Assembly (NCBI GenBank): GCA_946635125.1
Contig: CAMPBB010000001.1
Location: 1-17,240, forward strand
From: an uncultured Clostridia bacterium
GTDB taxonomy: Bacteria; Bacillota; Clostridia; Christensenellales; UBA1242
Reading direction: 5' to 3'
Length of the DNA stretch: 17,240 nucleotides
Part shown: positions 4,446 through 13,104 of the stretch, piece after piece
How the letters are laid out: each line of letters begins with the position of its first letter
How positions within the stretch are numbered: position 1 is the first letter of the stretch
Position numbers and translations under genes: made by a program
Notes under the pieces: model-generated
Database searches by the model: none
Seen by the model: only the letters and a program-made list of their open reading frames with translations
Told to the model about the DNA's origin: nothing

Positions 4446-5066
4446 ATGGATGAAAGTGATGTTAACAGCATAAAAGTTAATGTGATGAAAGAAAAGAGGG
4501 GAAAGTTTAAGTCCGGCATTTGGTATGTGGAAATTTTTTTCATTTCTCTTCTTTTGTGTTTTGTGTTTTCAATCATATCTCAGCTTCTTTTAATTAACGC
4601 AAAATTATCACTGGCTTTGTTTTTGGTTTTGGTTTTAATTTTTGTTAGTGTGTTTTTTGATGTTGTTGGTGTTGCAGTTGCAGCTAGCAACATTAAGCCT
4701 TTTTTGGAACTTAGGATGAAGAAACAGAATAGGGGAGTTGAGCAAGCAATCAAACTTGTGAAAAATGCCGACAGAGTTTCTTCAATTTGCACAGATGTTG
4801 TGGGAGATATTTGCAGTATTGTTAGTGGAGCAAGTGGTGTTGCAATTTCAATAATTTTAATTAAAGAACTTCCAAGCATTAGTGGGGCGTTTTTATCAAC
4901 ATTTGTTAGTTCCATAATTGCAGCGTTAACTGTTTTGGGGAAGGCGTTAGGAAAAAATTTTGCTCTAACTTGTTCAACAAAAATTCTGCTTTTTGTTGGA
5001 AAAATTATGTCTACTTTTGGTAGAAATAAGAAAAAAATTAAAAGCACACACGCCAAAAAGCCCTAA
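4446..5066 (+). CDS. Multispanning membrane protein, possibly CNNM/DUF21-like, function unknown
   Basis: A 206-residue protein with a charged N-terminus, hydrophobic segments at about residues 26-50 and 55-80, two more in the C-terminal half (about 125-145 and 148-170) and a very basic tail (NKKKIKSTHAKKP). The central segment FFDVVGVAVAASNIKPFLEL, then QAIKLVKNADRVSSICTDVVGDICSIVSG, reminds me of DUF21/CNNM-type transmembrane domains of CorB-like proteins, but there are no CBS domains. That assignment is from memory of motifs and is tentative. The gene sits where B. subtilis has ispA-dxs-yqxC between xseB and the arginine repressor gene. No ribosome binding site precedes the ATG. It shares its start architecture with spoIIM and yunB, which suggests sporulation expression. 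Confidence 0.75.
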   Translation: MDESDVNSIKVNVMKEKRGKFKSGIWYVEIFFISLLLCFVFSIISQLLLINAKLSLALFLVLVLIFVSVFFDVVGVAVAASNIKPFLELRMKKQNRGVEQAIKLVKNADRVSSICTDVVGDICSIVSGASGVAISIILIKELPSISGAFLSTFVSSIIAALTVLGKALGKNFALTCSTKILLFVGKIMSTFGRNKKKIKSTHAKKP

Positions 5067-5651: not shown

Positions 5652-5682
5652 AAGCAACCATGAAAAATTGGTTGCTTTTTTT
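5652..5682 (+). terminator. Intrinsic terminator of argR
   Basis: AAGCAACC (5652-5659) pairs perfectly with GGTTGCTT (5670-5677) around a 10-nt loop. The run of T continues to 5682. It separates argR from the SOS-controlled recN promoter. Confidence 0.85.
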
Positions 5683-5700
5683 GTTCATTTGTTCTATAAT
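5672..5700 (+). promoter_or_regulatory. Promoter of recN
   Basis: A perfect -10 TATAAT at 5695-5700, 17 bp after a poor -35 TTGCTT at 5672-5677, which overlaps the terminator stem. The -10 starts at the inner edge of the left arm of a 10-bp inverted repeat (5686-5716) and is directly followed by a LexA-type box. Confidence 0.5.
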
Positions 5701-5706
5701 AAAATT

Positions 5707-5720
5707 AGAACAAATGTTTG
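5707..5720 (+). promoter_or_regulatory. LexA (DinR)-type SOS box controlling recN
   Basis: AGAACAAATGTTTG fits the Bacillus LexA consensus CGAACRNRYGTTYG at 13 of 14 positions (only the first base differs). It sits just downstream of the recN -10, about where transcription would begin, a typical repression position. The left half of the box is also the right arm of a perfect 10-bp inverted repeat with CATTTGTTCT at 5686-5695. Confidence 0.75.
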
Positions 5721-5731
5721 AGGTGGAATTT

Positions 5732-7396
5732 ATGTTAACAAATCTAAGAGTTAAGAATTTTGCTTTAATTGAGGAATTATCAATAAATCTTGGTGAAAAC
5801 TTAATTGTTTTTAGTGGGGAAACTGGGTCTGGTAAGTCAATTTTGATGAATGCCATAAGTTTTTTGATTGGAGAGAAAATAGACAAGGCTTTTGTGAGGT
5901 TTGGGGCAGATTATGCATTGGTGGAAGGAATTTTTTCTGTTGATGAAAAAGTTAAAAGTGTTTGTGATGAACTTGGAATTGAATGTTGTGATGAACTTTT
6001 AATTTCCAGAAAAATTAAGGCTGATGGAAAAAGTGAAACAAGAGTTAATGGTTCAATCATAACAGTTGCAATGCTTAAAAAGTTAACAAGAGCTTTGGTG
6101 GATATTTATGGGCAACACCAACACCAAACTCTTTTAAACGAGCAAAGTCACATTGATTTTATTGATTCCATAAAAAGACCAGAAGGCCTTGATGCTTATC
6201 AAGATATTTTAAGTCAAATTGATGAAATAAACAAAAAACTTTGTGAATTTGGGGGAGATGAAGGGAAAAGGCAAAGAGAAATTGACATTTTGGAGTTCGA
6301 ACTCAAAGAGTTAAATGATGCCAGCCTTTCAATAAATGAAGAAGAAGAACTTTTGGAAAAACAAAAAAGGTTTAAAAACACGCAAAAAGTTTGTGAAGCG
6401 ATAACAGGTGCAACATCAATTTTGGAAGGCGATGACAATTTTTCAATTTTGAGTGGACTTAAAACATCGGCAAAGAGCTTGCTTTCAGCTACTTTGGAAG
6501 AAAAAGAGATTGAAAACGCATATTCAAGGCTGGAATCTGTTCAAATTGAACTTGAAGACATAAAAGAAAGTTTGATGTCTATCATGGAAAGTTATTCATT
6601 TAGTGAAGAAGAATGTGAAATGGTTGAAGACAGACTTGCAATTTTAAAAAACATTAAAAGAAAATATGGTGGAAGCATTGAAAGTGCAATAACATACATG
6701 GATGAAGCAAGCAAAAAACTTGAATTTTTGCAAAACAGTGATTTTGAGTGCCAAAAGCTTGAAAAGCAAAAAGAGGAGTTAACAGAAAAGGCAAGGCTTC
6801 TTGCAAATCAAATCAGCAAAGCAAGGCATGAAAACGCCAAAATTTTTGAACAAAACATGAAAGATGAACTAAGTCAGCTTGGAATGAAAAACGCTCAAAT
6901 TTTGGTTGATTTTGTAAGTCTTAACAGTTTTACAAAAAATGGCACTGATGGGGTTAGATTTTTGTTTTCAGCAAACAAAGGTGAGCCATTAAAGCCATTA
7001 ACAAGTGTTATTTCTGGTGGAGAAATGTCGAGATTTATGCTCGCTTTTAAGGCTGTTATGGGCAACAATAATGGAACAGGCACAATGATTTTTGATGAAA
7101 TTGACAACGGAATTGGCGGAGAAGTGGGTTTTTTTGTTGGAGCAAAACTAAAAAAGATTGCAAAAAATTCTCAGGTTATTGTTGTAACTCACTTGGCAAG
7201 CATTGGTGTTATGGCGGATGAGCACTTTAAAGTGTTTAAAACATCTTCAAATGAAAGAACAGTTTCAAACATTGTTAAACTTGGCGAAAATGAAAAATTG
7301 TTGGAGATTGCAAGGCTTGCTGGTGGCATTAGTGAAAAGTTTGCATATAGTTACGCCCAAGAACTAAAACAAAAAGCAACGCAAATTTGTGCTTAA
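5732..7396 (+). CDS. recN: DNA repair protein RecN
   Basis: A 554-residue SMC-like ATPase of the usual RecN length. RecN is recruited early to double-strand breaks and helps hold and process DNA ends for recombination. The start is MLTNLRVKNFALIEEL. Walker A GETGSGKS is at residues 29-36, followed by DIYGQHQHQTLL typical of the family. A long coiled-coil region fills the middle (about 150-390). The ABC signature SGGEMSRFMLAFK begins near residue 428, Walker B MIFDEIDNGIGG near 452, and the VVTHLASIG H-loop follows. The ATG at 5732 has AGGTGG 5 nt upstream; an in-frame ATG at 5660 lies in the argR terminator. A LexA-type box points to SOS induction. Confidence 0.97.
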   Translation: MLTNLRVKNFALIEELSINLGENLIVFSGETGSGKSILMNAISFLIGEKIDKAFVRFGADYALVEGIFSVDEKVKSVCDELGIECCDELLISRKIKADGKSETRVNGSIITVAMLKKLTRALVDIYGQHQHQTLLNEQSHIDFIDSIKRPEGLDAYQDILSQIDEINKKLCEFGGDEGKRQREIDILEFELKELNDASLSINEEEELLEKQKRFKNTQKVCEAITGATSILEGDDNFSILSGLKTSAKSLLSATLEEKEIENAYSRLESVQIELEDIKESLMSIMESYSFSEEECEMVEDRLAILKNIKRKYGGSIESAITYMDEASKKLEFLQNSDFECQKLEKQKEELTEKARLLANQISKARHENAKIFEQNMKDELSQLGMKNAQILVDFVSLNSFTKNGTDGVRFLFSANKGEPLKPLTSVISGGEMSRFMLAFKAVMGNNNGTGTMIFDEIDNGIGGEVGFFVGAKLKKIAKNSQVIVVTHLASIGVMADEHFKVFKTSSNERTVSNIVKLGENEKLLEIARLAGGISEKFAYSYAQELKQKATQICA

Positions 7397-7452: not shown

Positions 7453-8454
7453 ATGTTTAAAGTTTTAAAAAAAACAATGTTGTTTCTTTTGCTTTTTGTG
7501 AGTTTTTTGTGTTCGTTTTCAAGTCAGCAAACAAATTCCCAATTTTTTTGTTTGGGTCAAACTCAAAGAACAAACCAAGTTATTTTGGGCGGACAAACAA
7601 TTGGAATTAGTTGTCAAACAAGGGGACTTTTGGTGATGGCGTGTGCTGATTATTGTGATTATTTAAAGCCAAATGACATAATCATTGCAATCAACAATCA
7701 AACTGTTAACTCAAATTTGGATGTTAAAAATCTTTTAAAGGATGGTGGAAAAGAAAGCGTTTTGTTAACAATTATTAGAGATGGAAACGAAATGACAATG
7801 AACATAAACCCTTTTTTTGATTTGCTCACACAAAAATATGTTTTGGGTGTTTGGGTTAAAAACGAAATTAGTGGAGTTGGGACTCTCACATATGTAAACC
7901 CAAACACGGGTTACTTTGGTTCTTTGGGGCATCCAATGTTAAAACAACGCACAAAGCCAGTTGAGGTTCAAGGCGGAAAAGTTTATTCATGCAATGTGTT
8001 TGGCATTGTTAAAGGGAAGAAAGGAGTTCCAGGAGAACTTAAAGGTGTGATGTCTCGCTCAAAGGCATATGGTGATGCTTTAAAAAACAGTGAACATGGC
8101 GTTTTTGGCACAATTAACGATTATTCTTTTATTGAAAACATCAAACTTGTTGATGTTGGTGGCAGAAAAACCATAAAACCAGGGAAAGCAACAATTTATT
8201 GTTCTTTAACAGATGGAAAAGTGGAAGAGTATGACATTGAAATAATTAAAACGAACTACCAAAATGTGTCTAACGACAAAAGTTTGGTGTTTAAAGTTGT
8301 TGACAAAGATTTAATCAGCAAAACTGGTGGAATTGTTCAAGGAATGAGCGGGAGTCCAATTGTTCAAAATGGTAAACTGGTTGGGGCTGTAACGCATGTT
8401 TTCACCAATGATTCCACAAAAGGTTTTGGTGTTTATATTGATTGGATGATGTAG
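7453..8454 (+). CDS. spoIVB: SpoIVB peptidase (family S55), sporulation signalling protease
   Basis: A 333-residue exported serine protease. An N-terminal signal anchor (about residues 8-25, after basic residues) is followed by a PDZ domain (about 45-120, with LKPNDIIIAINNQTV) and an S55 peptidase domain. The latter has GSLGHPM (catalytic His160) and QGMSGSPIVQNGKLVGAVTHV (active serine within residues 299-301). In B. subtilis SpoIVB is made in the forespore and secreted into the intermembrane space, where it cleaves SpoIVFA to trigger SpoIVFB processing of pro-sigma-K. It is shorter than the 426-residue B. subtilis enzyme, mainly at the N-terminus. Its place between recN and the spo0A-like gene is the conserved one. 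The SD-like motif is 12 nt from the ATG and buried in the recN terminator hairpin. Confidence 0.96.
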   Translation: MFKVLKKTMLFLLLFVSFLCSFSSQQTNSQFFCLGQTQRTNQVILGGQTIGISCQTRGLLVMACADYCDYLKPNDIIIAINNQTVNSNLDVKNLLKDGGKESVLLTIIRDGNEMTMNINPFFDLLTQKYVLGVWVKNEISGVGTLTYVNPNTGYFGSLGHPMLKQRTKPVEVQGGKVYSCNVFGIVKGKKGVPGELKGVMSRSKAYGDALKNSEHGVFGTINDYSFIENIKLVDVGGRKTIKPGKATIYCSLTDGKVEEYDIEIIKTNYQNVSNDKSLVFKVVDKDLISKTGGIVQGMSGSPIVQNGKLVGAVTHVFTNDSTKGFGVYIDWMM

Positions 8455-8495: not shown

Positions 8496-8517
8496 AATAT
8501 TTTAAAATATTGTCAAA
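8496..8517 (+). promoter_or_regulatory. 16-bp palindrome overlapping a 0A-box-like site
   Basis: AATATTTTAAAATATT at 8496-8511 is a perfect 16-bp palindrome, though of low complexity. It overlaps TTGTCAAA at 8510-8517, which differs from the Spo0A box TTGTCGAA at one position. If real, the site would let a Spo0A-type protein control its own gene. Confidence 0.4.
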
Positions 8518-8522
8518 AAATG

Positions 8523-8552
8523 TTGACTCATGTTAATAATTCGTGTTAATAT
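8523..8552 (+). promoter_or_regulatory. Candidate proximal promoter of the Spo0A-like gene
   Basis: TTGACT at 8523-8528 with TAATAT at 8547-8552 (18-bp spacing, 4 of 6 in the -10). TGTTAATA is directly repeated at 8531-8538 and 8544-8551. The ribosome binding site AAGGAG follows at 8568-8573. Confidence 0.35.
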
Positions 8553-8580
8553 ACAAAAAACACCAAAAAGGAGCAACTTT

Positions 8581-9258
8581 GTGAACGCAATATTTTATCA
8601 TGAACAAAACTGCTTTATTGACTATGATATTTCATATATCTTAAAGAAAAACAATTTTTATATTGAAACGGTAAACAACATTGGAACACTTATTTCAACG
8701 ATTATTCTTAAAAAGGCGAAAATTGTTATTTTAAAAACAAGGAACAAAAGCATTGATGAAATTATTGCTGATGAATTTCTGTTAAAAACGCTTTTTAATG
8801 GGGTTTTCTTTTTAAAACTTGATGAGGAAAAAGAAAAAGACATAACATACAAACGAGATTTTTTGGCACGCCTTAAAATGTCAATCGAAGGCGTTATAGA
8901 GAAAACAAAAGAACCATTTAACATTTTCAACATAGATAACAAGTTAATTTCTCTTGGCTTTTTGCCAAAATATCGTGGTTACACTTTCTTGAAAGATTGT
9001 TTAAAATTTTGCTGCTATTTAGGTGATTGCAAAAAAATGCCAATGGGCAAGATTTATGAAAAAGTTGCACAAAAACATAACACTAGTGCAAAAAATGTTG
9101 AACGGCTAATTAGGTTAACAATTTTGCAGTCAATAAACAGGGTTGGGGCAAAAGGAATGAGTGAAAAGACTGGAATTTGTGAAGAGTTTTTTAAGTCTAT
9201 GCCAACAACAAACACAGTGCTTGAACTTTTGTGTGGTTATTTTGATTTTTGCACTTAA
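8581..9258 (+). CDS. Spo0A-like regulator: Spo0A DNA-binding domain with a degenerate, non-phosphorylatable receiver
   Basis: A 225-residue protein from the GTG at 8581, 7 nt after AAGGAG. Residues about 122-225 match the Spo0A effector domain: LGFLPKYRGYTFLKD, then YEKVAQKHNTSAKNVERLIR (recognition helix region; B. subtilis has RVERAIRHAIE), and a C-terminal MPTTNTVLELLCGYF corresponding to the KPTNSEFI segment. Residues 1-115 have receiver length and strand rhythm but none of its signature residues. The acidic pair (ADD) aligns with YHE, and the phosphoacceptor (VLVLD) aligns with IVILK (Lys52). No Thr/Ser is in the switch position and no KP motif is present. It lies directly after spoIVB, the ortholog position of spo0A, master switch of sporulation. 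Either activity is independent of phosphorylation, or this is a paralog occupying the site. The effector-domain match is strong; orthology is inference. Confidence 0.85.
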   Translation: MNAIFYHEQNCFIDYDISYILKKNNFYIETVNNIGTLISTIILKKAKIVILKTRNKSIDEIIADEFLLKTLFNGVFFLKLDEEKEKDITYKRDFLARLKMSIEGVIEKTKEPFNIFNIDNKLISLGFLPKYRGYTFLKDCLKFCCYLGDCKKMPMGKIYEKVAQKHNTSAKNVERLIRLTILQSINRVGAKGMSEKTGICEEFFKSMPTTNTVLELLCGYFDFCT

Positions 9259-9310: not shown

Positions 9311-9949
9311 ATGTTTAAAAAATTAACAAAACGCCGTTGTGGCACTTTTAAGTATGCCATTGCCAGCCATTTTTTTGATTATAAGTGGGGTTATATAACT
9401 TTTTTTGCAATAATAATATTAGGGCTTGTTTTAGGTTTTGTTATTGGGTTTAACAAAGCGGAAAATTTTTCAATATCAGATATGCCAGACGCCACTTTTG
9501 TTAGTTTTATCAGTAAAAAGATTGGGGCACCAGCATTGTTTTTTTCTAGATTTTTTGGGTTTTTGGGGCTTGTGTTGCTTATTTTTTGTTTGTGTTTTAA
9601 ACCAATTTTGAGTTTTGTTAACTTTTTTATTGTCTTATATCACTCCTTCTTGGTTGGCATAAACTCCTCGATTTTAATTTCCTTATTTAAAATAGGTGGG
9701 GTTGTTGATGTTGTTTTTCTATATCTTCCAATAAACATTGTGTGTCTTGTGCTTATTTCAGTTGTTGCGTCCGTTAGCCTTTTGTGTTCAATAAGGCAAA
9801 AACAAATGGGTTATGGGGTGTTTAGCGTGCAATTTTTTGCAGAAAACAAGGGGGCTTTACTTTTTGTTATGTGCGCTGCCTTACTTTGCTTTTTGCTTGA
9901 AGCAATTTTGATGCCACACATAACGCTTGCTTTGCTTATAAAAGTTTAA
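9311..9949 (+). CDS. spoIIM: Stage II sporulation protein M (SpoIIM)
   Basis: A 212-residue integral membrane protein, equal in length to SpoIIM (about 214). It has a basic N-terminus and about five hydrophobic segments (roughly residues 28-48, 80-97, 100-125, 135-160 and 183-205). The C-terminal segment CFLLEAILMPHITLALLIK matches the family's conserved end (LVEAY..P). SpoIIM, with SpoIID and SpoIIP, forms the septal peptidoglycan-hydrolysing machine that drives engulfment of the forespore. Overall similarity by eye is modest, so topology and the position before dacF, as in B. subtilis, support the call. It starts with ATG but has no ribosome binding site; a CATANNNTA element ends 4 nt before it, implying a leaderless transcript. 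Confidence 0.78.
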   Translation: MFKKLTKRRCGTFKYAIASHFFDYKWGYITFFAIIILGLVLGFVIGFNKAENFSISDMPDATFVSFISKKIGAPALFFSRFFGFLGLVLLIFCLCFKPILSFVNFFIVLYHSFLVGINSSILISLFKIGGVVDVVFLYLPINIVCLVLISVVASVSLLCSIRQKQMGYGVFSVQFFAENKGALLFVMCAALLCFLLEAILMPHITLALLIKV

Positions 9950-10005: not shown

Positions 10006-11160
10006 ATGGTAAAAGCAAAAAATATGGTTGCAATGTTGCTTCTTGGGCTTATGCTTTGTTTTTTCGTTCCAAGCTCTAATGTTGCTGCATTGCAAGAAGA
10101 AGGTGTTAAGTCAAGCATTTTAATTGAAAGTGAAAGTGGTGAAGTTCTTCAAGAAAATAATTCACACCAAAAACTTGCAATTGCAAGTGTGACAAAACTT
10201 ATGACAATTTTGCTAACTCTTGAAAAATTGGATGAACAAAAGTTAACATTGGACCAAACTATTATTGCAAGCAAAACAGCAGCACAAATGGGTGGCTCAC
10301 AGGTCTTTTTGGAAGAGGGTGGAGAATACAAGGTTTTAGACCTTTTAAAAAGCGTTATCATTAGTTCAGCCAACGATTCAAGTGTTTTGCTTGCTGAAAC
10401 AATTTCTGGAAGTGAAAAGAACTTTGTTGAAGAGATGAACAAAAGGGCGGCTCAGTTAAATCTTCAAAACACACATTATAACAGTGCAACGGGGCTTCCA
10501 GCACCAATGCAATATAGTTCTGCCTATGATGTTGCCGTTGTTATGAGAGAAGTGTTAAAACACCCATTATACTTAAAACTTTCTGGAATTTGGATGGAAT
10601 ATTTTTCACATCCAAAGGGAAGAATAACTGGCATGGCAAACACAAACAAACTTTTAAAGCAATATGAGTTTTGTGATGGAGGAAAAACGGGTTACACAAA
10701 TGAAGCAGGATTTTGCTTGTGTGCAACTGCTAAAAAAGATGATTTTAGGTTAATTTCTGTTGTTTTAGGTGCGGATAGTAGCAAAACAAGATTTAACACA
10801 ACAAAAGAGATGCTTGATTATGGATTTAACAATTTTGAGGTAAAAAAACTTGTGGATAAATCGCAAAACTTTGGCGATGAAATAACCATTTCAAAGTCAA
10901 AAAACAAAGAACTTAGTTTACATGCCGAAACTGACTGCACAGTGGTTGTGAAAAAAGGTGAAAATGCCGAATTTGAAGCAAAATTTGAAGCATACAAAAA
11001 TCTTTGTGCACCAATTGAAAAAGGCTGTAAAGTTGGAGAAATAAAAATCTTTAAAAATGGCGAACTTTTTAAAACAGTTGGAGTTATTACAACTGAAAAT
11101 ATTCAAGAGCAAAGTTATTTTAACATCATTCAAAGCATAACAAAAAGATGGTTAATATAA
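10006..11160 (+). CDS. dacF: D-alanyl-D-alanine carboxypeptidase, DacF type
   Basis: A 384-residue penicillin-binding protein of the S11 family. It has a signal peptide (residues 1 to about 28, ending SNVAA), the catalytic tetrad SVTK (Ser61-Lys64), SAN (121-123) and KTG (227-229), and a C-terminal beta-sandwich ending with an amphipathic tail (about residue 365 on) that would hold it on the outer face of the membrane. It removes the terminal D-Ala of peptidoglycan pentapeptides and so limits cross-linking. DacF acts in spore cortex synthesis in B. subtilis and lies just upstream of spoIIA-sigF there. Here it follows spoIIM but no spoIIA genes follow. AAAGGAG precedes the ATG at good spacing. 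The stop codon lies in the loop of a terminator hairpin. Confidence 0.93.
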   Translation: MVKAKNMVAMLLLGLMLCFFVPSSNVAALQEEGVKSSILIESESGEVLQENNSHQKLAIASVTKLMTILLTLEKLDEQKLTLDQTIIASKTAAQMGGSQVFLEEGGEYKVLDLLKSVIISSANDSSVLLAETISGSEKNFVEEMNKRAAQLNLQNTHYNSATGLPAPMQYSSAYDVAVVMREVLKHPLYLKLSGIWMEYFSHPKGRITGMANTNKLLKQYEFCDGGKTGYTNEAGFCLCATAKKDDFRLISVVLGADSSKTRFNTTKEMLDYGFNNFEVKKLVDKSQNFGDEITISKSKNKELSLHAETDCTVVVKKGENAEFEAKFEAYKNLCAPIEKGCKVGEIKIFKNGELFKTVGVITTENIQEQSYFNIIQSITKRWLI

Positions 11161-11844: not shown

Positions 11845-13104
11845 TTAATTATGATTTGAACATTTTTCACGAGATTCCTCGGTTATTTGAGGTTCTGCCT
11901 TTGGAGTTAGGTCAGAATAATAAGCACTTGTTTGCCTTGTTTGTGGAGTTTGAAGTTCTGTTCTTGTCTGGTTGTTATTTGTGTTTTGTGATAACTCTGC
12001 ATTATTTGGCGTGTTCGTGTTTTGACTTGTGCTTGATGTGCTATTATTAAAATTTTGAGTGTTTGTTGTGTTTGAGTTTTGGCTATTTGCGCTTGTTGTT
12101 TCTCCACTGTTTGATTGATTATTTTGCGTTGTTGGAGTGGCGTATAGGTTGTTAAGTTTTGTTATCGCTTCGTTGCAACACTCCAAAATCACAATTCTTG
12201 ACTTTAAAGTTGCTTTAAGGCAAAGGCTTTCTGCACTATCGTTCATGTTTTGTGTGTTTTTGTTAAAATACATCTTATTTAAGTCAAACATAAGTTCTTG
12301 TTGATTTCTGTCCAAAGAATTTGCAAAGCGATTAAGTGCTTTTTCATAGTTTGTGATTTCACTAGTTTTTTGGTTTGTTTGGTTTGATGTTATGTTTTGT
12401 TTTAATAACTCAATATTTTGTGTTAAATTGCCATTTATGGCTGTTATGTTTTGTGTTATAGGAGTGTTTGGTTCAAAAGAACTTAAATTGTTATTTTGAT
12501 TTGTGTTGTTTTGCTCATCATTGTTTTGATTTTTTGTTATTGTGGAATTTAACTTATCTTGAGTAGAGTCAAAAGAGTTTGTTGGTTGTTGTGAAGAGTT
12601 TGTTTCTTCTGTGTTTAAATTTTCCTTTGTTGTGTTGGAAGCGTTGCCAAAGTTTTGTTTTGATGAGGTAAATCCATTGTTTGTTGTGTTGTTTTCATTA
12701 GAGTAGGTTTCTTTGCCCTGGGCTATATTATTGTTTAAAGTGTCTGGGGTATTATGCAAAACATAATACTCATTGTTATTCTCATTTTGCGAAGAGTTGT
12801 TCCTTAATTCGCTGTTATTTTCTTGATTTTGCTGAGGTAGGCTGAAGCCACCATAAAACACATATGAACGGGTGTTATTTAACATATAATTTGTTCCATC
12901 ATAAAACAAATAATAGTCATCATTCAAAAACATGTTTTCTGGATTTTGAAAATCGTATGTCATGTTTGCATAGCTTTCGATTCTGTCAAGAGTGCTAAAA
13001 ATATCTGTTTGAGCCTCAACCGTTTGTGGGGTGGCTAATGTTAATGCACCAAGCCCAATTGTGCTTAAAGTGGCAATTGCCAAAATGTTTTTTGTTTTTT
13101 TCAT
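11845..13104 (-). CDS. Exported Asn/Gln/Ser/Thr-rich protein, function unknown
   Basis: A 419-residue protein with a clear signal peptide (basic MKKTKN, hydrophobic core to about residue 25, likely cleavage after VEA at 29-31). The mature protein starts with a short aromatic-rich part (about 32-90, with many Tyr/Phe and DDYYLFYDG). Two long low-complexity tracts of Asn, Gln, Ser and Thr (about 91-250 and 322-395) flank a compact, probably helical domain (about 252-322) with Cys295 and a Cys309-Cys310 pair. One more Cys is at 415. No LPXTG, no cell-wall repeat and no catalytic motif is visible. AAAGGAG precedes the ATG; I find no convincing promoter. It could be a surface, spore-coat or matrix protein. 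It is divergent from spoVAC and not recognised. Confidence 0.8.
   Translation of the reverse strand: MKKTKNILAIATLSTIGLGALTLATPQTVEAQTDIFSTLDRIESYANMTYDFQNPENMFLNDDYYLFYDGTNYMLNNTRSYVFYGGFSLPQQNQENNSELRNNSSQNENNNEYYVLHNTPDTLNNNIAQGKETYSNENNTTNNGFTSSKQNFGNASNTTKENLNTEETNSSQQPTNSFDSTQDKLNSTITKNQNNDEQNNTNQNNNLSSFEPNTPITQNITAINGNLTQNIELLKQNITSNQTNQKTSEITNYEKALNRFANSLDRNQQELMFDLNKMYFNKNTQNMNDSAESLCLKATLKSRIVILECCNEAITKLNNLYATPTTQNNQSNSGETTSANSQNSNTTNTQNFNNSTSSTSQNTNTPNNAELSQNTNNNQTRTELQTPQTRQTSAYYSDLTPKAEPQITEESREKCSNHN

Follow-up and report, generated by a model that had tools for sequence, protein, structure and literature searches.

A spoIVB-linked Spo0A relative with a predicted pseudo-receiver domain in a family of Clostridia

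The window, here meaning the whole stretch of 17,240 nucleotides that was analyzed, contains argR, recN, spoIVB, a spo0A-related gene, a SpoIIM-like gene, and a dacF-like gene, in this order, followed by two opposite-strand open reading frames (ORFs) and by spoVAC, spoVAD, and yunB (Table 1). The spo0A-related gene lies directly 3' of spoIVB, and the best tree joins it with other spoIVB-linked copies (see below), both in agreement with the original prediction, made from the sequence alone, that it occupies the canonical spo0A site. In the following, canonical Spo0A proteins encoded away from spoIVB are referred to as class A, the degenerate paralog as class B, and proteins of the spoIVB-slot type, including the one in the window, as class C. 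The SpoIIM-like product shows no Pfam match at an E value of 1, and its TIGR02831 score is below the threshold, so a firm SpoIIM label was not adopted. Two further ORFs encode proteins with no Pfam match. Positions 4446 to 5066 (forward strand), between an exonuclease VII-like ORF and argR, encode a 206-aa membrane-like protein that is conserved in genomes G085 and G065. Positions 11845 to 13104 (reverse strand) encode an apparently secreted 419-aa protein rich in Asn, Thr, and Gln, weak relatives of which adjoin dacF in G041 and G104.

Table 1. Features of the spoIVB-linked region of the window
Feature	Positions	Strand	Basis or remark
recN	5660..7396	+	SMC_N match and position; name from the original prediction
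spoIVB	7453..8454	+	Peptidase_S55, 242 bits
Promoter-like site, TTGACT, 18 bases, TAATAT with TG extension	8523..8552	+	Sequence; enrichment over 42 loci
TGTTAATAT, extended -10 portion of the promoter-like site	8544-8552	+	
Ribosome-binding site AAAGGAG	8567..8573	+	
Class C gene, pseudo-receiver Spo0A relative (predicted) in the spoIVB slot	8581..9258	+	225 aa, GTG start
Predicted receiver-fold N-terminal domain, residues 1-111	8581..8913	+	AlphaFold2, VIA-align, hhalign
Codons of E8-Q9, aligned with the acidic pair	8602..8607	+	
Codon of K52 at the phosphoacceptor place, end of beta3	8734..8736	+	AlphaFold2, alignments
Codon of D81 at the switch Thr/Ser place	8821..8823	+	Alignments
Spo0A_C DNA-binding domain	8935..9237	+	
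Recognition-helix segment NTSAKNVERLIRLTILQSI	9079..9135	+	
SpoIIM-like membrane protein	9311..9949	+	Full-length TIGR02831 match, 19.7 bits (cut-off 100.2)
dacF-like D-alanyl-D-alanine carboxypeptidase	10006..11160	+	Peptidase_S11, PBP5_C

The GTG start of the class C gene is preceded by the ribosome site AAAGGAG, and the same start residue is seen in the three database relatives of its product (224 to 225 aa, 52 to 57% identical). A homologue search with the window protein alone returned four matches, itself included; with a nine-row alignment, it returned eight. The protein scores 49.9 to 51.7 bits against the Spo0A_C profile of Pfam (cut-off, 25), which bears out the DNA-binding domain assigned by the original prediction. 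Its N-terminal half has no Pfam match and, specifically, no match to PF00072 (Response_reg) at an E value of 1. Against the TIGR02875 equivalog model, the full protein scores 27.9 bits (cut-off, 200), compared with 250 for the class A protein of congener G001. Unlike canonical Spo0A (TIGR02875, PF00072 plus PF08769), it lacks the phosphoacceptor Asp, the lysine of the Lys-Pro motif, a Pfam receiver match, and a perfect upstream 0A box, and it falls below the equivalog cut-off.

The AlphaFold2 model of residues 1 to 111 contains four strands and lacks beta5. Receivers stood out in the VIA-align comparison of the model but not in a Foldseek search against the PDB, where the two matches at an E value of ≤0.001 were both Spo0A C domains. 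The N-terminal half is recognized as a receiver by profile-profile and fold comparison and not by domain software. The comparison with known receivers points to a predicted receiver fold, and an N-terminal half unrelated to receivers was judged unlikely from the AlphaFold2 model, VIA-align, and hhalign. The claim that every phosphorylation residue had been lost stood in part: the phosphoacceptor place is taken by Lys52, but at the acidic pair (Glu8-Gln9 in the window protein) the glutamate stays, and the three closest relatives have Glu-Asp. Taken together, the window protein is predicted to have a receiver fold, unable to take up phosphate on Asp, followed by a DNA-binding domain.

In this respect, it resembles the pseudo-receiver, or aspartate-less, regulators (PMC12632262), which, as presented in the available part of that paper, likewise have the receiver fold without catalytic residues; unlike pseudo-receivers as defined there, the window domain has diverged too far to be recognized by the Pfam receiver model. 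The string "spo0a" does not occur in the main text of that paper, as far as available. In the phage-borne Spo0A proteins, as described in the available part of PMC10294663, the Spo0A DNA-binding domain is likewise freed from phosphorylation. Those proteins are receiverless and reside in phages, whereas the window protein has a predicted receiver fold and is encoded in a chromosomal sporulation cluster, with sporulation genes on both sides, and so is not of the phage type.

Sites of the TGnTAnnnT type scoring at least 6 of 8 are found within 100 bases upstream of 27 of the 42 class C genes of the family, compared with 7.2 ± 2.6 (maximum, 16) expected from 100 dinucleotide shuffles; the other 15 genes have no such promoter site. 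Read-through from spoIVB could be an alternative source of class C transcription. A perfect 0A box, TGTCGAA, is located approximately 115 to 150 bases upstream of the class A gene in all five congeners, whereas none (0.16 expected) was found in the regions, at most 150 bases long, upstream of the 42 class C genes; control of class C through 0A boxes was dismissed on this ground. Boxes with one mismatch number 11 in these 42 regions versus 6.6 expected, with both expectations taken from shuffles that preserve base content only; the upstream region of the window gene was counted up to the upstream ATG at position 8530, not up to position 8581. A near-match box, TGTCAAA, is found at positions 8511 to 8517 upstream of the window gene.

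The idea that the window gene might be the only Spo0A of its genome did not hold up in a search with the Spo0A_C and receiver profiles. The assembly from which the window comes (772,831 bases, 67% complete) contains another Spo0A_C gene, located on contig C67, and all five congeners (89 to 99% complete) encode, away from spoIVB, a canonical class A protein with a Pfam receiver match and all five phosphorylation residues (DD/D/T-or-S/K). The window gene is, therefore, probably not the only Spo0A of its genome. An intact copy was recovered from the congeners only: the 67%-complete assembly yielded no class A protein and no receiver match at an E value of 0.001, so we infer from its congeners that this species has class A. 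Up to three Spo0A-like proteins, the window type among them, are encoded per genome. The class A gene adjoins a zinc-ribbon gene in all five congeners (an assignment that is weakly supported in two of them) and has nearby a gene that we take to be polA-like. Class B, with its part-decayed receiver, is found in the same genome as the window and in four congeners (G001, G041, G065, and G085), in three of which it adjoins what is presumably a sigG-like gene. In the class B protein from the genome of the window (L067:2687-3439, contig C67), Glu aligns with the phosphoacceptor place. Like class C, this is a Spo0A_C protein with a degenerate receiver, but in the tree it groups with class A, whereas the window protein groups with the slot copies. 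Within the genus of the window (g1), the class C gene lies directly 3' of spoIVB in all five genomes that have spoIVB, including the one studied here; in G001 (99% complete), neither spoIVB nor class C was found.

Matches to spoIVB were obtained in 110 of the 118 genomes of the family, and 110 loci from 109 genomes were read; G044, which has spoIVB fragments only, was left out of the slot count, and some loci stop at contig ends. Divergent forms also occur at spoIVB-linked loci of related genomes: 42 of the 110 slots, in 17 genera, contain a divergent Spo0A_C gene, counting only genes that match the Spo0A DNA-binding profile at an E value of 0.001 and placing more divergent ones under other arrangements. 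At 26 loci, spoIVB abuts the SpoIIM-like gene, so that the slot gene is absent or has moved in many lineages, and 42 loci show another arrangement or a contig end. By eye, none of the family slot proteins looks canonical, and none of 20 slot proteins from named genomes matched a class A receiver profile at an E value of 0.001. Shortened slot proteins occur in genus g32 (160 to 198 aa) and in G090 (a bare DNA-binding domain of 120 aa), and a class C-like protein is encoded off the slot in G036. Genome G004 has two spoIVB genes (L083 and L144), and a class C gene follows each; one of these two class C genes is short.

Across the order, 97 genomes have spoIVB; the 30 loci with the best scores were read, and 22 of these 30 carry Spo0A_C in the slot. 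Full-length forms, some with acidic-pair changes by eye, are found in families f2, f7, f18, f22, f23, and f33, and a doubtful full-length form is found in f28. In f4, f16, and f24, the slot proteins look degenerate by eye, whereas those of f13, f19, and f29 are bare DNA-binding domains. Some genomes, such as G118, G149, and G220, encode a second full-length Spo0A elsewhere in addition to the full-length slot copy. The zinc-ribbon neighbor of class A also adjoins non-slot copies in f6, f14, and f19.

In a tree of 105 DNA-binding domains (110 columns), the class C branches are long. Class C groups with the slot copies of f24, f19, and f29 (UFBoot support of 91, or 96 without f24), while one clade (UFBoot, 89) unites the family class A proteins with the non-slot copies of other families and includes the five class B proteins, themselves grouped with a UFBoot of 99. 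The best tree joins class C to the full-length slot copies with a support of less than 80. Forcing class C into the clade of A and B costs 26 log-likelihood units (p-AU, 0.061), and forcing it to group with class B alone gives a p-AU of 0.043, in tests on 58 of the 105 sequences, so that the competing placements are weakly rejected. Most simply, the ancestor of the order would have had two Spo0A proteins, and the slot copy would have decayed in several lines.

Among 51 within-genus pairs of class C genes, pN is lower than pS in 50, the sole exception being the two copies of G004, one of which is short. The dN/dS ratios are 0.07 to 0.18 in the closest pairs of genera g8, g5, and g15. In g1, they are 0.49 to 0.65, with 2 of 10 pairs not computable, and constitute weak evidence because synonymous sites in this genus are near saturation. 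In the recognition-helix segment, 11 of the 19 positions are identical in all 59 class A proteins compared. The class C proteins retain E213 (36 of 45), R214 (35 of 45), and R217 (38 of 45), have Asn at position 211 in 22 of 45 cases, and mostly have a residue other than His at position 218; the helix residues are, we assume from the 1lq1 structure, DNA contacts. In the four closest proteins, every position but one of the K165-R175 part of the helix region is invariant.

On balance, we incline to the view that the window gene is the spoIVB-linked spo0A, inherited in place, which has lost its role as the sporulation switch to the class A paralog and now encodes a pseudo-receiver DNA-binding protein. 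Under this scenario, the switch role would have passed to class A elsewhere in the genome, and growing cells would transcribe class C from a sigma-A-type promoter of its own, with no feedback through 0A boxes. Its product would bind DNA without a phosphorylation step, and we propose that its effect would therefore be set by its amount rather than by phosphorylation. The changed recognition helix suggests that class C might regulate sites that differ from, or overlap with, those of class A.

The original prediction, that sporulation is started without phosphorylation by the window gene as the only or the main Spo0A, is very improbable. It could draw on the failure to find class A in the 67%-complete assembly and on G025 (96% complete, in 140 contigs), whose sole Spo0A_C match at an E value of 0.001 is weak and whose slot gene is likewise weak. 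Against it stand the second Spo0A_C gene, the class A copies in all five congeners, and the 0A boxes that class A of the genus has and class C lacks; moreover, 98 of the 118 family genomes match the canonical Spo0A profile over its full length (at least 242 bits). Class C might also be a decaying relic without function, given the shortened forms in some genomes, the empty slot at 26 of the 110 loci, and its very fast divergence: the window protein is 24 to 29% identical to the slot proteins of four congeners, compared with 49 to 60% for SpoIVB. Such decay is improbable in view of the open reading frames in 17 genera, the purifying selection in the closer pairs of other genera, the ribosome site and promoter, and the helix residues that do not vary among four relatives, of which three are 52 to 57% identical to the window protein.

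It is quite unlikely that class C arose by duplication of class A or B and was subsequently placed in the slot instead of descending vertically as the spoIVB-linked orthologue. Class B sets a precedent for degenerate paralogs from the A lineage, and the p-AU of the alternative tree with class A and B is above 5%; yet other families conserve the position after spoIVB, with full-length or part-decayed copies, and both the grouping with slot copies of f24, f19, and f29 and the p-AU for class B alone argue against a duplication. A pseudo-receiver that is not locked but senses a metal, a metabolite, or a partner protein, making class C a gated regulator with a new input, seems unlikely as well, and we know of no ligand or partner of this domain. 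Its fold seems to be kept, and three charged residues at pocket places, E8, K52, and D81, are invariant across four relatives; the Asp at the phosphoacceptor place is kept in 16 of the 26 proteins in the structure alignment, which covers that many of the relatives at hand. On the other hand, the N-terminal half is less conserved than the rest of the protein, and the slot proteins of g32, G090, f13, f19, and f29 are too short to include a receiver.

The HisKA domain was detected in 15 of the 118 family genomes (14 of the 91 high-quality ones) versus 12 of 14 control genomes; it was not found in 103 genomes, including congener G001 (99% complete). Other kinase families may occur in genomes without HisKA. 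In a search of 16 genomes for HATPase_c, the four matches in G001 were two topoisomerase subunits, SpoIIAB, and MutL, and the nine proteins identified in G001, G021, and G034, which include every match of G001 and G034, belong to these same kinds; the remaining matches were judged by length alone. Genome G065 has two kinase-like frames of 398 and 424 aa, the first with HisKA, and further frames measure 723 aa in G058 and 621 and 625 aa in G010. The only receiver match in congeners G001 and G104 is their class A protein. SpoIVA was found in 17 of the 20 genomes tested, including all six of genus g1. The suggestion that sporulation here would start without a phosphorelay or orphan kinases thus gains indirect backing from the missing HisKA domains, but not from the window gene.

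The class A receivers themselves vary. Of the 98 full-length matches, 59 were sampled (the best-scoring loci, the five congeners, and one or two genomes of further genera). All five phosphorylation residues, allowing Glu for either acid and Ser for Thr, are kept in 24 of these proteins, and at least one is changed in 35; the second acid is kept in 34 and the phosphoacceptor Asp in 52, the latter being replaced by Glu or Asn in g5, g6, g19, g28, and g34. A link between HisKA and an intact class A was considered and dropped, as class A is intact in three of the six sampled genomes with HisKA (G012, G016, G026, G029, G047, and G065) and in 21 of the other 53. In three of the four g42 genomes, in both g3 genomes, and in G014 (g14), G089 (one of five g6 genomes), G166, and G222, the class A receiver profile detects no receiver in the best Spo0A_C protein at an E value of 0.01. 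All nine genomes have spoIVB (fragments only in G044), and six have SpoIVA, which was not found in G003, G044, and G089. Because G044, G014, and G089 are only 76 to 83% complete, a further Spo0A copy may be missing from them. The loci of these receiver-free class A-like domains are L003, L006, and L012 (g42), L318 and L319 (g3), L320 (g14), L321 (G089), L322 (G166), and L323 (G222).

A broader possibility, which we put forward tentatively and regard as rather doubtful, is that in this family of ~1-Mb Clostridia, which probably belongs to the order Christensenellales, Spo0A has been uncoupled from histidine kinases, with a phosphorylation-independent slot Spo0A, eroding class A receivers, and loss of the receiver in some lineages. 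Sporulation would then be triggered by the amount of Spo0A or by a signal that does not come from a kinase, for instance a small-molecule phosphodonor. Lineages in which HisKA was not found may form spores, judging from their genomes. A 2024 review (PMC11210211), in its available part, reports a hypothesis by which orphan kinases initiate sporulation in all clostridia, and its conclusion is that one pathway does not account for every case.

Entry into sporulation is regarded as being gated by the phosphorylation of Spo0A. The presence of spo0A is used as the first criterion for the sporulation potential of uncultured genomes according to the available part of PMC11536998. In the case described here, the switch is probably not encoded at the canonical spo0A site, and a paralog seems to have taken over. 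If so, genome-based calls of "spo0A present" would be ambiguous, and class C would provide natural variants for asking how much of Spo0A control needs phosphorylation. The question of how Spo0A works without kinases is better put to class A and to the receiver-free lineages. Among the literature matches listed (titles and beginnings of abstracts, with few subscription journals covered), there was no paper dealing with a pseudo-receiver Spo0A linked to spoIVB or with Spo0A in spore formers that lack kinases.

Several stand-alone Spo0A_C proteins were also seen. A bare 104-aa protein, encoded at L072:7546-7860 (reverse strand) on a phage- or mobile-element-like contig of G104, resembles the phage forms described in the available part of PMC10294663. 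Others, of 117 to 150 aa, are encoded at L332, L333, and L334, the one at L333 approximately 3 kb from a canonical spo0A gene.
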